Translations under genes and position numbers: made by a program
The notes under the pieces: generated by a model
What the model was told of the DNA's origin: nothing
The model's database searches: none
Seen by the model: only the letters and a program-made list of their open reading frames with translations
Shown: in pieces, positions 16,469 to 40,114 of the stretch
Numbering within the stretch: position 1 is the first letter of the stretch
Layout: every line of letters begins with the position of its first letter
Assembly (NCBI GenBank): GCA_018820855.1
Contig: JAHJNL010000036.1
Span: 1 to 64,000, forward strand
DNA length: 64,000 nt
Reading direction: 5' to 3'
DNA from: Pseudomonadota bacterium
GTDB lineage: Bacteria; Desulfobacterota; Desulfobulbia; Desulfobulbales; Desulfocapsaceae

Positions 16469-16498
16469 TTGACACTATGTTGCGATGCGTGATAGAAT
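16469..16498 (+). promoter_or_regulatory. Sigma-70-type promoter for the selenopeptide gene
   Basis: TTGACA (16469-16474) and TAGAAT (16493-16498) are separated by 18 bp, about 90 bp before the selenopeptide ATG. The leader has a small hairpin (16540-16564, arms AGCCCTT/AAGGGCT). Together with the terminator downstream this makes the gene a self-contained transcription unit. Confidence 0.65.
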
Positions 16499-16588: not shown

Positions 16589-16930
16589 ATGGACGCAAAG
16601 GAACTGAAAAAGATCCTTGCCGGAATCGGAGTTGTCGGCCTGCTGGCCGGCGGCGGTATATCCGTTCCCGGTAGTGCCGGTGCCAGCAGTGGCTGAGGCG
16701 GTGCAAAGCCCAGTGCAGTTAGCACTGAAACACCCCCGCCCGGCAGTGGCTGAGGCGGCAGCAAAGACGACGCAGTTAGCGTCGAAGAACATGCAGAAGA
16801 AGCCGTAGATGAAGCTGCTGATATGAAGAAGGAACCGGCAGGCAGCGGCTGAGGCGGAAGTAAAGAAGGCGCAGGTAGCGCCGACGACGAGCAGAAGAAA
16901 AAACCACAGAAGAGCGGCTGAAGCGGTTGA
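16589..16930 (+). CDS. SbtA-like selenocysteine RiPP precursor (four Sec)
   Basis: Reading UGA as selenocysteine gives a 113-residue peptide with Sec at 36, 55, 88 and 111 and a fifth UGA (16928-16930) as stop. The N-terminus (MDAKELKKILAG, a Gly/Ala-rich hydrophobic stretch, then SVPGSAGASSG) is a leader. The core repeats (S/G)SG-U-GG(A/S)K three times, separated by Lys/Glu/Asp-rich spacers, and ends KSG-U-SG. It resembles, from memory, the family NCBI calls SbtA, thio(seleno)oxazole RiPP precursors modified by the radical SAM enzyme SbtM; I cannot verify this here. Each UGA is followed 14-16 nt later by a hairpin with a different stem sequence, which strongly supports recoding. The ATG at 16589 has AAAGGAG 8 bases upstream. 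No obvious maturase is adjacent; a radical SAM/SPASM gene lies 22 kb away. ORF finders will truncate the gene at residue 35. Confidence 0.88.
16711..16727 (+). promoter_or_regulatory. SECIS-like hairpin 1
   Basis: Stem CAGTGC/GCACTG with loop AGTTA, beginning 15 nt after the last base of the UGA at 16694-16696. Position and size fit bacterial SECIS elements, which lie just downstream of the Sec codon within the reading frame. Confidence 0.8.
16768..16784 (+). promoter_or_regulatory. SECIS-like hairpin 2
   Basis: Stem CGACGC/GCGTCG with the same AGTTA loop as hairpin 1, starting 15 nt after the UGA at 16751-16753. The stem differs from hairpin 1 at compensating positions. Confidence 0.8.
16868..16882 (+). 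promoter_or_regulatory. SECIS-like hairpin 3
   Basis: Stem GGCGC/GCGCC with loop AGGTA, starting 16 nt after the UGA at 16850-16852. The GCAGGT apex is like the one remembered from the E. coli fdhF SECIS loop. Confidence 0.8.
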
Positions 16931-16934
16931 TGTC

Positions 16935-16950
16935 AAGTGCGGTCGCACTT
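16935..16950 (+). promoter_or_regulatory. SECIS-like hairpin 4 (beyond the stop)
   Basis: Stem AAGTGC/GCACTT with loop GGTC. It begins 14 nt after the UGA at 16919-16921 but only 5 nt after the UGA at 16928-16930. By the spacing of the other three, it serves the first of these and leaves the second as the stop. Confidence 0.75.
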
Positions 16951-16959
16951 ATCGATTAG

Positions 16960-17000
16960 AAAGGCCGGTTGTGACATGAGTCACAACCGGCCTTTTTTTT
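16960..17000 (+). terminator. Strong rho-independent terminator after the selenopeptide gene
   Basis: A perfect long stem (AAAGGCCGGTTGTGAC pairing with GTCACAACCGGCC plus the first T bases), a four-base loop ATGA and a run of nine or more T. It ends the transcription unit that starts at 16469. Confidence 0.93.
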
Positions 17001-18252: not shown

Positions 18253-20502
18253 TTACGTGATCGATCTGTCTTCCCGGAGAGCTTTCTGGACGGCAATGCC
18301 CAGCTGTTCAAAGGTGTATGGTTTCTTGATGAAGGCACCGGCCCCAAGTTTTATGGTCTGCTTGACGTCCTCACTTTCGGAAAAGCCGCTGGCGATGACG
18401 GCCTTCTGCTTTGGATGAATTTTGATTATTTCCTCATAGGTTTGACGGCCGTTGAGTCCAGAGTCCATGAGCATATCCAAAAGAAGGAGGTCGACTTTTT
18501 GGTCACGGACATAAGCAATTGCCTCTTCACCCGAAGTTACTGTGTCTACCTGGTAGTCAAGCAGAGAGAGGAGTTGGACGGCAATGTTACGCTGATGCGG
18601 TTCATCATCGATAACGAGGATGAGCTCTTTTTTACCTCGGATATTTTCAATGGTAATATTTTCTTTGGGGCTGCTGAGAGACTGGTCAGAGCTGACGGGA
18701 AAGAGCAGGGTAAAAGTGGTCCCTTTTTCGTCGCTTTCAACCTTGACCTTACCGTCGTGATCCTGAATAGCATTCCAGACCACGGTAAGGCCTATGCCGG
18801 TACCGCTGCGGCCCATCTTTTTTTTCGTATAAAAAGGTTCAAAGATGTGCTCAATGTCATCGGCGGCAATGCCGGGGCCGTTATCTTTGACTGCCAGGGC
18901 GATATACTTTCCTCTTGGGAGTGCTTCTTTTTGCATCTCTTCGTCGTCGAGAGAGCAATTCCGGGTGCTGATCGTTATTTGTCCTGTGTTTCCCAGGGCT
19001 TCTGCTGCGTTGATGACCAGATTCATCAAACATTTTTTGATATGCACCGGAGAGCATTTGATGTTGTGGAGTTCAGGGGCCAGCTGGATGGTGATCTGGA
19101 CGTCGGGATACTGGCTGAGCAGTTTTTTTCCTTCCAGGGATTTAAGGTACTCTTTGATGAGTGTGTTGATGTTGACGATTTCCTGAATATTGGCAGCGCT
19201 GCGGGCTACGGTCAGCATGTCGGAGACCACTGCAGCCGCGCGCAGGCCTGACTCGTGGATGGCCTTGATGGGGGGATATAATTTGTTATCCTCAGAGAGC
19301 TGCATAAGAAGAATCTCGGGATAGCTTACCACACCGGACAGGATATTGTTGAGGTCATGTGCGACACCTCCGGCCATGAGGCCAATGGCTTCCATTTTTT
19401 CTGCCTTATGGAGTTTCTGTTCGGTAATTTTGCGTTCCTCGATCTCAAAGAGGAGTTCGGTGGTCCGTTCCTTCACTCGACTTTCCAGTTCTCTGTTATT
19501 TTTTTCCAGCGATTTGTTGAGATTGACAATCTTTTGTACCAGGTTGCCGTAGCTGAAATAGAGAATGAGAAAGGAGAGGCTGATGAGCAGAGCACTGAGG
19601 AGGAGAGCAGAGAAGAGCAGAGATCGTCTTTGCGTGACTTCTTTGCTGATATCCAAGGCAACAAAGAGAAGTCCCAGTTCTTGGTTTTGAAAATTTAAAA
19701 GATTGTAGACATTGTAGACCACATAGTCTTTGCCGGCAAAGGCAGTCCGGTATTGACTCTTGTTCCAGTCAAGATTGACAATGTTTTGGAAGAGGGGCGG
19801 GTTGGAAGAATAAATGGTATGGCTTCGGCCGGAAACACCTTTTTGGTATTTTTGGAGAATTTTCTTGTACTCACTGTTAAGAATGGCAACGCCGGCAGGG
19901 GCTTGGAGCTTTTTTTCAATGGCGTCTTGGAGAACTTGACCTTCGATGCCGATCTGTACTGCTCCCAGATACTTGTTCTGGTAAAAAACAGGTTCGACAA
20001 CCCGGTATTGGAGACCGATGTAGCCTGTAGTGAACCCGGAGCGCTGTTTGTGAAAAAGGTTGACTGCAGCCACATCAGGGCGCATTTTTGTGACATTCTG
20101 GCCAAAGTCTTCCGGGGAGTGGACTCGGAGAAAGGCCTGGTTGTCCGGAAGGATCCAGCCTAAGGTGGAAAAATGAGAATTTTCCTCTTGCAGGGTCTCA
20201 AATAAAGGTTTGCTGAGGCGCAGAAGTTCCTGGCGATCCCGGCGGGCAAAGGCCTGGATCATCATTTCCCGGCTTTTTGATGATTTGTAGTTGAGAAAAC
20301 TTTTGATACGAAGCTGATATTGAATGCTGGTCTGCTCAACGATGGCTTCGGCAACAATGGAAGCACTTTGGGCCTTGCTGTCGATGATCTGTTGCATACT
20401 GCGTTGATTCTCCTGATAGAGGAGGGTGAGAAAAACAGCGCAGATGGTTATGATGACTAACATAACAGCAGTGATAACCTTGGCTCTTGGGCTTTTTTTC
20501 AT
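18253..20502 (-). CDS. Hybrid sensor histidine kinase with C-terminal receiver
   Basis: Membrane sensor of 749 residues. TM1 lies at about 10-30, a large periplasmic double-Cache-like sensor at about 35-300 (FSTLGWILPDNQAFLRVHSPEDFG), TM2 at about 305-330, and a coiled coil after it. HisKA contains GGVAHDLNNILSGV (phospho-His in AHDLNN), HATPase has NLVINAAEAL, DNGPGI and GTGIGLTVV, and the receiver domain (about 625-745) has DLLLLDMLMDSGLNG and KKPYTFEQL. The NtrB-like H box places it with kinases that often signal to NtrC-type or separate output proteins. No cognate output gene is adjacent. It lies 88 bp behind ygiQ on the same strand. Confidence 0.92.
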   Translation of the reverse strand: MKKSPRAKVITAVMLVIITICAVFLTLLYQENQRSMQQIIDSKAQSASIVAEAIVEQTSIQYQLRIKSFLNYKSSKSREMMIQAFARRDRQELLRLSKPLFETLQEENSHFSTLGWILPDNQAFLRVHSPEDFGQNVTKMRPDVAAVNLFHKQRSGFTTGYIGLQYRVVEPVFYQNKYLGAVQIGIEGQVLQDAIEKKLQAPAGVAILNSEYKKILQKYQKGVSGRSHTIYSSNPPLFQNIVNLDWNKSQYRTAFAGKDYVVYNVYNLLNFQNQELGLLFVALDISKEVTQRRSLLFSALLLSALLISLSFLILYFSYGNLVQKIVNLNKSLEKNNRELESRVKERTTELLFEIEERKITEQKLHKAEKMEAIGLMAGGVAHDLNNILSGVVSYPEILLMQLSEDNKLYPPIKAIHESGLRAAAVVSDMLTVARSAANIQEIVNINTLIKEYLKSLEGKKLLSQYPDVQITIQLAPELHNIKCSPVHIKKCLMNLVINAAEALGNTGQITISTRNCSLDDEEMQKEALPRGKYIALAVKDNGPGIAADDIEHIFEPFYTKKKMGRSGTGIGLTVVWNAIQDHDGKVKVESDEKGTTFTLLFPVSSDQSLSSPKENITIENIRGKKELILVIDDEPHQRNIAVQLLSLLDYQVDTVTSGEEAIAYVRDQKVDLLLLDMLMDSGLNGRQTYEEIIKIHPKQKAVIASGFSESEDVKQTIKLGAGAFIKKPYTFEQLGIAVQKALREDRSIT

Positions 20503-22436: not shown

Positions 22437-22552
22437 TGGCTAAAAGGCTGAAGATTGGCGGCTGAGGGCCGAGTGTTGAAGAGAAAAGACACTGGCTTGA
22501 GCTTGTTCCAGTTGTGCTGTTTTTCTCCGGTCTTCAGCCTTCTGCTTATTCA
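22437..22552. repeat. Inverted GGCTGAAG-type intergenic repeat (1)
   Basis: Left arm with GGCTAAAAGGCTGAAG (22437 onward) and right arm CTTCAGCCTTCTGC (22532-22545) flank about 70 bp between the divergent ygiQ and nth-xthA genes. One of several such pairs in this window. Confidence 0.6.
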
Positions 22553-22669
22553 CCTGGCATATATCCTAACTTTCTGAGGGAAATTGTGCAATCTTGTTTC
22601 TTGACAGGGATCCGGGTAGAATGCGGAAAAACGAAGTGTAAGAAAGTTAACAGAGGAAAGGAAGGAAGA

Positions 22670-24112
22670 ATGTCCATTGATATAGTCAGGTTTCTGCAGG
22701 TTCTTATACAAGAGGTGAAGGAGTATCAGGTGCCGGTGGTGGATCTGATTGCCGTTCAGACCAGAGATCCGTTTAAGGTCCTGGTGGCGACTATTCTCTC
22801 GGCCAGAACCAAAGATGAGGTGACAGCCCAGGCAGCTGAGCGGCTTTTTGACCGAGCCCCAACAGTGCAGGCATTGGCGGAGCTGGATGAAAAAACGCTG
22901 CAGAAGCTGATCTATCCGGTTGGATTTTACAAAAATAAGGCCAGGTATCTGGCGGCCCTGCCCGGCAAACTGACTGGGGATTTTGATTCCCGTGTTCCTG
23001 CTGTTATGGAAGATTTGCTTTCCCTTCCCGGTGTGGGGAGAAAGACAGCCAACCTGGTTCTGGCCCAGGCCTTTGCTATCCCTGCTATCTGTGTAGACAC
23101 CCATGTCCATCGGATTATGAATATCTGGGGCTATGTGGAAACCGAGAACCCTTTGCAGACCGAGATGGCCCTGCGTGGAAAATTGCCGGAAGAATACTGG
23201 ATTCCGGTTAATTCACTCTTGGTGGCCTTTGGTCAAGGGACTTGCAGGCCAGTGGCTCCGCACTGTGACCGCTGTGTCCTGGCGGACAGCTGTCCGCAGA
23301 TAGGGGTGACTCCGAGAAAGCTCAAAAAGAAGAGTGCGGCAGGAGAGATCCTGCGTCTGGTCTCCTGGAATGTGAATGGCCTGCGGGCGGTCCTGAAAAA
23401 GGGCTTTCTGGAAAGTGTGAAAGAGATGGCTCCGGATGTTCTTGGGCTGCAGGAGATCAAAGCAATGCCTGAGCAACTCCCTGAATCGTTGCTTTCCCTG
23501 GATGGATATCACAGCTATTTTCATTCAGCGCAGCGTAAGGGCTATTCCGGAGTCGCAGTCTACAGCCGTAAAATTCCAGAACAGGTCATTGTCGGCATCG
23601 ACGATCCACGTTTTGATAGTGAGGGGCGGGTATTGACCTTGGAGTTTTCAACCTTTTATTTCGTCAACTGCTACTTTCCTAATTCCAAGAATGACCTGAG
23701 CAGGCTGGGCCTAAAACATGAGTTTAATGTCGCTCTGCAGAATTTTGCAGACCAGCTGGCCCGCAAGAAATCAGTGGTGATTTGCGGAGATTACAATGTG
23801 GCCCATAAGGAAATCGACCTGGCCAATCCCAAACAGAACCAAAAAAATGCCGGATTTACACCGGAAGAACGGGCCTGGATGGACAGTTTTATTGGTGCCG
23901 GCTGGATTGATTCCTTTCGTGAGAAGAACAGCGATGCGGATCAGTATTCGTGGTGGAGCTATCGCAGCCGGGCACGGGACAAAAATATCGGCTGGCGTAT
24001 TGATTACCATTGTGTTGATCCTGCGAGCAGGAAAAGGATCGTGGATGCGGACATCTATCAGCACATTTATGGGTCTGATCACTGTCCGGTTGTGCTTGAT
24101 TTTCTTACGTAG
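22670..24112 (+). CDS. Endonuclease III / exonuclease III fusion (base-excision repair)
   Basis: A 480-residue fusion of two successive base-excision repair enzymes. Residues 1-215 are endonuclease III: helix-hairpin-helix LSLPGVGRKTANLV with catalytic K125, D143 in VDTHVHR, and the [4Fe-4S] cluster C192-X6-C199-X2-C202-X5-C208. After a basic linker (RKLKKKSA), residues 226-480 are an ExoIII-type AP endonuclease: VSWNVNGLRA, LQEIKA (E262), GDYNVAHKEIDLANP (D374, N376), RIDYHCVD and the final GSDHCPV (D470, H471). All catalytic residues of both halves are present, so the protein could excise a damaged base and process the AP site itself. ATG at 22670 follows GAAAGGAAGGAAG. The longer frame is rejected because it runs through an intergenic repeat. 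Confidence 0.95.
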   Translation: MSIDIVRFLQVLIQEVKEYQVPVVDLIAVQTRDPFKVLVATILSARTKDEVTAQAAERLFDRAPTVQALAELDEKTLQKLIYPVGFYKNKARYLAALPGKLTGDFDSRVPAVMEDLLSLPGVGRKTANLVLAQAFAIPAICVDTHVHRIMNIWGYVETENPLQTEMALRGKLPEEYWIPVNSLLVAFGQGTCRPVAPHCDRCVLADSCPQIGVTPRKLKKKSAAGEILRLVSWNVNGLRAVLKKGFLESVKEMAPDVLGLQEIKAMPEQLPESLLSLDGYHSYFHSAQRKGYSGVAVYSRKIPEQVIVGIDDPRFDSEGRVLTLEFSTFYFVNCYFPNSKNDLSRLGLKHEFNVALQNFADQLARKKSVVICGDYNVAHKEIDLANPKQNQKNAGFTPEERAWMDSFIGAGWIDSFREKNSDADQYSWWSYRSRARDKNIGWRIDYHCVDPASRKRIVDADIYQHIYGSDHCPVVLDFLT

Positions 24113-38905: not shown

Positions 38906-39931
38906 TTAATGCGTATGGGCCATGCGATAAAAACAGTACGGATCATTGTGAAATATTCCTGTAGCCCCATACGACATGGATGAACATCCTCCTTGGCAGA
39001 GATCTGCTTTGTCACAATCCTGGCAATTCTCACCCAACATATTCATGGAGTAGTTGCGATTGTATTGAAATGACTCTGGATCGAACCATATCTCCCAGAG
39101 GTCTTTTTCTCGCAGGTCTCCTTCGCTTACGTTGTCAGGCATGGAAAGGCATCCTTTCACCTTGCCATCACTCGTTATACCGCACGAAAAGATACCGGCA
39201 GGACAACCTCTCCATGGAGGAGAGCGAGTGTCATAATCTGTGAAATAACCCAAACTGTCTCCAGAGAGTAGTTCCATGCCGTTTTCTGCAGCACGCTGAC
39301 TGTATTGCGACACGAATTCCCCGAAACTCATGTAGGTTGAATGAGTCAACTGCAGATGGGGCATTTCCCGAACCCTGCCTAAGGGGAATATGGGCTGAAT
39401 TTGCCAATGCCGGACTCCCAACGAAAGCAGGTAATCATACATGGCCGGCATTTCCGAGATATTGACGGTGTTTACTGTCGTAAGGACTGTTACCGGGAGG
39501 TTGGCTTTGATCAGGTTTTCTATTCCTGAGGTGACTTGGCGAAAGAGTCCGGGAGAATCACGTATGCGGTCATGATTTTTTTCAAGTCCGTCCATGCTTA
39601 CACCGATACTGGCCATACCGGCATTAACCAGACTGTTTATGGTGTCTGGTGTGAGTGTAAGGCCGTTAGTGATCATTTTTGTGGTGATGCCGATCTCTCG
39701 CAGGTGTACTGCAATATCAAACCAATCGGGTCTGAGGAGTGGTTCGCCTCCTGTGAAATTCACCTCCTGCACCAAGAGGGCCGGAAATTGATCGCAGAGG
39801 GAGATGGCTTCGGCAAGACTCAATTCATCGGGTCTTGCCAAACCTGCAGAGGAACCGCAGTGGCTGCAGCGAAGATTGCAGGCGAGGGTTAGTTCCCAGC
39901 CGACAATAAATGGAAATCCTTCATACCCCAT
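38906..39931 (-). CDS. Radical SAM/SPASM-domain protein
   Basis: About 341 residues. N-terminal radical SAM barrel with CX3CX2C (LACNLRCSHC) and the glycine-rich NFTGGEPLLRPDW. The C-terminal SPASM domain carries auxiliary Fe-S ligands, including CQDCDKADLCQGGC (CX2CX5CX3C) and a final YC. Such enzymes modify peptides (RiPPs) or activate other enzymes. The start at 39931 follows AGAGGA with 7-base spacing; the longer frame is non-native. Its context (mnmE on one side, an envelope protein on the other) gives no clear substrate. Candidates are the small ORF behind it and, more speculatively, the selenopeptide at 16.6 kb. Confidence 0.9.
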   Translation of the reverse strand: MGYEGFPFIVGWELTLACNLRCSHCGSSAGLARPDELSLAEAISLCDQFPALLVQEVNFTGGEPLLRPDWFDIAVHLREIGITTKMITNGLTLTPDTINSLVNAGMASIGVSMDGLEKNHDRIRDSPGLFRQVTSGIENLIKANLPVTVLTTVNTVNISEMPAMYDYLLSLGVRHWQIQPIFPLGRVREMPHLQLTHSTYMSFGEFVSQYSQRAAENGMELLSGDSLGYFTDYDTRSPPWRGCPAGIFSCGITSDGKVKGCLSMPDNVSEGDLREKDLWEIWFDPESFQYNRNYSMNMLGENCQDCDKADLCQGGCSSMSYGATGIFHNDPYCFYRMAHTH

Positions 39932-40114
39932 AATCTGTCCTCTTTTTGAATCCGCATAGATGCGATTTTCTGCATGCACTCTGCGTAGAGAACTTCTTTT
40001 ATTTGGTTCGCCGGATGTGAATTTGGATAGCAATGTAACCACCAGCGCTGAGGTTCATTTTTCTCTCACTTATTTCTTGGTGAGTTTTCACAGCTGCAAC
40101 AAGAGGCCGCGATG

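Follow-up and report, generated by a model that had tools for sequence, protein, structure and literature searches.

The locus described here raises the question of what is made from a short reading frame in which UGA occurs four times in frame, every time with a small hairpin behind it. The window, that is, the whole stretch of 64,000 nucleotides analysed, comes from a genome of the Desulfocapsaceae. At 16589–16930 of its plus strand is a gene, sbtA, whose frame starts with the ATG at 16589 and, with UGA read as selenocysteine (Sec, U), translates as MDAKELKK...SGUGG...SGUGG...SGUGG...SGUSG. The predicted product has 113 residues with four predicted Sec residues, at codons 36, 55, 88, and 111, the UGAs being at 16694–16696, 16751–16753, 16850–16852, and 16919–16921 of the plus strand. 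The first three have the context SG-U-GG and the fourth SG-U-SG. Translation places both the codons and the contexts exactly where the original prediction, made from the DNA letters alone, had put them. A fifth UGA, codon 114 at 16928–16930, lies 6 bases past the fourth, an arrangement shared with relatives. Since the hairpin scan found no hairpin of comparable score at this codon, it is taken as the stop, and it is likely the true one, giving the product of 113 residues. On the sequence evidence set out below, we consider it very probable that 16589–16930 encodes an SbtA precursor in which the four hairpin-followed UGAs are predicted to specify Sec and would be converted by SbtM to (seleno)oxazole rings.

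The ribosome-binding site of sbtA, AAAGGAG, is rated good. A sigma-70 promoter candidate, TTGACA-18-TAGAAT with TG before the second hexamer, is found at 16469–16498 of the plus strand by consensus match only; it has 11 of the 12 consensus bases, and one such site was found for 0.5 expected from shuffles. An intrinsic terminator with an 18-pair stem and a T run extends from 16958 to 16997 on the same strand. Given the ribosome-binding site, the promoter-like site, and the terminator around it, sbtA looks like a free-standing transcription unit downstream of efp and epmA, two genes named by NCBIfam models.

The hairpins following the four UGAs, all on the plus strand, are as follows. Scanning and folding identify CAGTGC-AGTTA-GCACTG at 16711–16727, CGACGC-AGTTA-GCGTCG at 16768–16784, and GGCGC-AGGTA-GCGCC at 16868–16882; the fourth, AAGTGC-GGTC-GCACTT at 16935–16950, is beyond the stop codon, in the 3′ untranslated stretch. 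These are the stems and loops that had been claimed, and the 14, 14, 15, and 13 bases intervening between UGA and hairpin agree with the earlier spacing of 15, 15, 16, and 14 nt, which was counted to the first stem base. The published rules for a bacterial SECIS call for a loop of 3–9 bases, a stem of 4–16, a G in loop bases 1–2, a UGA-to-loop distance of 16–37 bases, and an energy of −7.5 or below (PMC13188914). All four window hairpins, which had been put forward for such a SECIS check, fall within these rules: loops are of 4–5 bases, stems of 5–6 pairs, G is among loop bases 1–2, the UGA-to-loop distances are 20, 20, 20, and 19, and the energies, taken over the 47 bases from each UGA, are −16.9, −12.9, −11.5, and −10.9 kcal/mol. 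In 2000 dinucleotide shuffles, an equally good narrow-geometry hairpin arose 11, 10, 31, and 20 times at sites 1 to 4, and all four together never did. Shuffles that fold as well as the 47-base stretches numbered 2, 3, 19, and 32 of 200, so that hairpins 3 and 4, judged singly by folding energy alone, are not remarkable.

The relatives of the gene provide a broader comparison. Sec-context UGAs were chosen by their flanking residues, independently of hairpins, and a control position was placed 33 bases downstream of each. At a score of at least 12, a hairpin of narrow geometry follows 260 of 281 Sec UGAs, as against 54 of 281 controls and 0 of 31 stop UGAs; 21 of the 281 Sec-context UGAs have no hairpin qualifying at this score. 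With the threshold at 10 or above, the counts are 269/281, 71/281, and 2/31. Loop base 1 or 2 is a G in 259 of the 260 Sec hairpins versus 23 of the 54 control hairpins, and the relatives' hairpins have 85 distinct 5′ stems.

Covariation was followed at those sites, 132 of the 281, where residues +7 to +9 read A-(V/G)-(S/G); selecting on this motif determines the loop and the inner two pairs and leaves the outer stem free. The three pairs between codons +6 and +10 are formed at 132, 131, and 132 of the 132 sites, and the next outward pair at 116. At 111 of the 132 sites, codons +6 and +10 are exact reverse complements of each other (mean 26.7 and maximum 45 in 2000 shuffles), a figure with no formal probability attached since the sequences are related and not independent; five other codon pairings give 0, 0, 8, 1, and 5 exact reverse complements. 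Only 15 distinct +6/+10 codon pairs occur, of which 6 are exact reverse complements and most others pair via G-T. The compensating stem changes that were first noticed among the four hairpins of a single gene are thereby borne out across relatives. The design of one SECIS per UGA is clear in SbtA. Four UGAs are predicted to be decoded and a fifth, six bases on, to be the stop, with the local hairpin apparently setting each choice, and in sbtA repeated bacterial Sec insertion could be studied in a small natural system. Animal selenoprotein P likewise has many UGAs per message; however, a passage of PMC5133445 on the human and mouse genes gives two 3′UTR SECIS elements for 10 UGAs, an arrangement that differs from the one local hairpin per UGA of sbtA.

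SbtA was first put forward through genome mining in about 2011, and the primary study of SbtM is that of Lewis et al. 2021 (Biochemistry 60:3347). The leader of the window gene, residues 1–27 (16589–16669, plus strand), matches the NCBIfam equivalog model SbtA TIGR04081, named "thio(seleno)oxazole RiPP natural product precursor", with 43.6 bits for a cut-off of 30.5; it is the one SbtA match in its genome (G000, 4.82 Mb in 106 contigs). One SbtM exceeds the cut-off in that genome, at C19:42900-44447 (TIGR04082, 685.5 bits, cut-off 350). The likeness to SbtA that the original prediction had drawn was therefore right, and sbtA is a further member of this known family, also called selenobacteriocin, sharing its leader, SG-Sec-G/S repeats, SECIS, and SbtM in the genome. 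A bacterial SECIS follows the UGA in all four of the gene's SG-(Sec/Cys)-(G/S) units. The prediction had named a lack of sel genes as evidence against itself; all four are present over cut-off, namely selC (tRNA-Sec, 73.4 bits), selB (367.7 bits), selA (609.5 bits), and selD (366.6 bits). The selD gene has one in-frame TGA and, 14 bases past it, the hairpin CCCAGG-GGA-CCTGGG, whose spacing and stem length of 6 pairs are as in sbtA. In the window, an Rfam search at gathering thresholds gave no match and a tRNA scan found no tRNA. A Pfam scan of the SbtA peptide returned nothing over cut-off, yet database relatives carry PF27804.

Profile searches of 257 genomes of the class found SbtA in 136, mostly in single copy, and SbtM in 127. 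Both are present in 122 genomes, SbtA alone in 14, SbtM alone in 5, and neither in 116 (Fisher p = 7.5e-50). SelB was tried as a discriminator of SbtA genomes and is a weak one, since 215 of the 257 genomes carry it (121 of the 136 with SbtA versus 94 of the 121 others, p = 0.011); 15 SbtA genomes have no SelB at the threshold used, two of them 98–99% complete. Among the best 80 of 251 SbtM relatives in named genomes, the flanking sequence retrieved contains an SbtA-like leader in 59. These 80 records come from Desulfobacterota lineages, Nitrospirae/Nitrospirota, one Acidobacteria, Candidatus Erginobacter, and others, and the closest SbtM among them, at 87% identity, is from a Desulfocapsa metagenome genome, so that the window's sulfur-cycling host probably belongs to Desulfocapsa or is closely related to it.

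The number of Sec residues was counted in 111 loci, comprising the window and 110, though not every one, of the SbtA places in the class genomes; the weak matches L093 and L108 are included here and were left out of a later set of 156 precursors. The 107 complete frames have no Sec in 3 cases, one in 5, two in 48, three in 30, four in 18, five in 2, and six in 1. The 16 complete precursors of the window's genus divide into nine with four Sec, the window's included, and seven with three. Four Sec is thus ordinary within the genus, and to call it striking, as had been done, was an overstatement. A 2026 review table lists the family with two Sec (PMC13188914), from which the window gene differs with its four. 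The frame with six, L097, has them in 124 residues, two being four residues apart (SGUSSGUGA). The first Sec of this close pair has no narrow-geometry hairpin of its own, and a single hairpin may therefore serve two UGAs. In 14 of the 107 complete precursors (L033, L037, and L038, for example), a Cys-ending tail, AIEGC, takes the place of the C-terminal SGUSG.

What the UGAs encode can be weighed against two other readings, both of which find some echo in the databases. When protein databases were searched with Cys in place of Sec, 10 proteins were returned; of eight database SbtA relatives examined, five (P0002-P0006) have Trp at the UGA sites and two (P0010, P0011) end just before the first UGA. 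The latter gene calls would suit UGAs that are ordinary stops, with a product of 35 residues and hairpins that are regulatory or idle, but this is very improbable given that the downstream frame, the repeat motifs, and the C-terminal SGUSG are conserved in relatives, that hairpins follow the Sec UGAs and none of the 31 stop UGAs, and that some relatives have Cys in the place of Sec. Scarcely credible is a different genetic code in which UGA is tryptophan. SelA, SelB, and tRNA-Sec are all encoded in the genome, as is a SelD that itself carries one in-frame UGA; intact relatives that swap Sec mostly use Cys; and 6 bases past UGA 4 the same codon probably serves as the stop. These points outweigh the Trp of P0002-P0006 and that of L093, a decayed copy which has Trp at a Sec site under the standard code. 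Databases mishandle SbtA genes, though 136 of the 257 class genomes contain the leader. Insertion of Sec remains the preferred reading, and in homologues the sites are mostly UGA and sometimes Cys, where a lack of conservation as either had been named as contrary evidence. The Sec site is lost in a few modules, to Gly in L118 and L212, Gln in L053, Glu in L243, and Trp in the decayed L093.

The relation of sbtA to sbtM in the genome varies. The two lie within 5 kb, and then invariably on one strand, in 83 of the 122 genomes with both, farther apart on the same contig in 5, and on different contigs in 34; contig ends might mask their closeness in some drafts. In the window's genome they are on separate contigs, each well inside its contig. 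In none of the 16 genomes of the genus do sbtA and sbtM share a contig at a distance of 5 kb or less; 15 are drafts in which the pair is split over contigs, and in G113, assembled in 2 contigs, they are 604 kb apart. The window gene thus differs from the known system in being unlinked to sbtM and in a tendency, within the genus, to follow epmA, which precedes sbtA in four of five same-genus genomes tested. The efp gene also precedes in three of these, the fourth locus being cut by a contig end, and L040 has neither gene there. A functional link to EF-P, suggested by the epmA neighbour and by a PPP in the window peptide, was rejected, as the 15 other complete peptides of the genus have no PPP.

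When neighbourhoods were compared, with the frames restricted to those that start with ATG and are 80 residues or longer, sbtM was found in all 18 linked ones and no other gene cluster in more than 3, so that no neighbour points to a function. A histidine-kinase-like cluster that includes the window's kinase (18256–20502) was set aside as a chance encounter with a large family. Two precursors from genomes with SbtA only, L093 (G143; a weak match) and L099 (G166), have no nearby start codon. They look decayed, as expected were SbtA useless without SbtM, although they are single cases from draft genomes.

As for what becomes of the peptide, a passage of PMC11002830 reports that Cys and Sec substrates treated with SbtM both lose four hydrogens, and that the Cys product, made in vitro by another SbtM, is a thiooxazole by NMR. 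The following mechanism is proposed. SelB would use each hairpin to deliver Sec-tRNA to its own UGA, and the UGA of codon 114, having no hairpin, would terminate the protein. Each SG-Sec-G/S unit would then lose four hydrogens to give a ring, through the SbtM encoded elsewhere in the genome, a step for which we rely on the in vitro work on the other SbtM. Less certainly, and by analogy, the leader may export the peptide to the periplasm or membrane, where soft metal ions would bind.

The original prediction had spoken of a modified secondary metabolite or a redox peptide; what is known of the family does not point to a redox peptide but to rings made by SbtM. A selenium store rich in Sec, or an unmodified redox peptide, would make sense of a small protein with as many as six Sec, but it is quite unlikely beside the tight co-occurrence with a dedicated radical-SAM maturase, SbtM, and a store would not tolerate Cys at single sites and throughout two precursors (L066 and L079). 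The name selenobacteriocin, which in the open literature searched occurs in PMC13188914 alone, in its review table, implies a secreted antimicrobial, and a small, secreted, modified peptide would fit. We regard this as unlikely. SbtA is present in 136 of 257 class genomes, mostly as one copy, and since sbtM is the one cluster shared by more than 3 of the 18 neighbourhoods, there is no shared transporter, immunity, or protease gene. Phage records searched with the sbtA gene and plasmid records searched with the first 33 SbtA residues gave no match, leaving a phage or plasmid origin unsupported.

The leader looks like an export signal. In the set of 156 precursors (109 of the 111 loci and 47 further named ones), a lipobox-like leader end is found in 43, 35 of them with Cys at residue 29, by a pattern, [LVIMFAT]-x-[GASD]-C, that is looser than the textbook one. 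An AxA-like end is found in 107, the window's included, this too being a loose pattern that is frequent by chance in Ala/Gly-rich sequence, and 6 leaders have neither. Such ends after the leader's hydrophobic stretch suggest, from the peptide sequences, that the leader also serves for export. Given the export-signal-like leader, the SbtA product could correspond, with selenium, to the copper-binding bufferins, which a passage of PMC12452194 describes as having an export signal and Cys-derived thiooxazoles and as holding copper in the periplasm. SbtA would resemble the bufferins Buf1/Buf2 in this leader and in the expected thiooxazole-type ring, and differs in using radical SAM and Sec rather than an MNIO enzyme and Cys; no sequence homology is claimed. 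No MNIO (PF05114) match was found in the window's genome by a search that was positive in 2 of 14 control genomes, so SbtA would be the same idea with another enzyme and selenium. It is tempting to propose, as a tentative analogy that we hold with more doubt than confidence, that Sbt is a selenium branch of the exported, ring-bearing metallophores, a periplasmic or lipid-anchored selenooxazole chain for soft metals with an x-x-A-V/G-S-x spacer written by the SECIS rather than by what the peptide requires. If so, each added DNA module would bring a Sec, its SECIS, and a metal site together, and, with export and metal binding, selenium-containing rings would join the exported metallophores.

The repeat motif itself may reflect the RNA. 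Across the 156 precursors, a hairpin comes after 355 of 396 Sec units versus 4 of 26 of those with Cys; for the A-(V/G)-(S/G) triplet the figures are 227 of the 275 Sec units with enough sequence versus 1 of 22 Cys units, several Cys units stemming from related or identical precursors. Since hairpin and triplet follow Sec units and seldom Cys units, the A-(V/G)-(S/G) repeat, the commonest motif of the peptide apart from the ring-forming core, and its flanks are probably set by the coding of the SECIS loop and inner stem. A strictly RNA-only origin is weakened by P0007, a database Cys form that retains a GAVS motif; its Cys may have replaced Sec recently, or the form may count against an RNA-dictated motif. 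Two precursors are all-Cys, L066 (G254) in a genome with SelB and L079 (G255) in one where SelB was not found at the threshold used. In L084 (G098), a second DAGSVE stretch has no preceding Sec, as if the SECIS segment had been copied minus the UGA. In the open literature searched, outside of which most subscription papers lie, we found nothing on a multi-Sec SbtA, on the leader as export signal, or on a SECIS-dictated peptide motif, and absence from print is not claimed.

Elsewhere in the window, a 532-residue frame at 22514–24112 (plus strand) fuses domains of endonuclease III (nth) and exodeoxyribonuclease III (xth), both base-excision repair enzymes. At 38906–40042 on the minus strand, adjoining a 316-residue protein with no Pfam match, is a radical SAM/SPASM protein nearest to the models of nif11-class and GDL-motif peptide maturases, with scores far below their cut-offs; it is possibly another peptide maturase.
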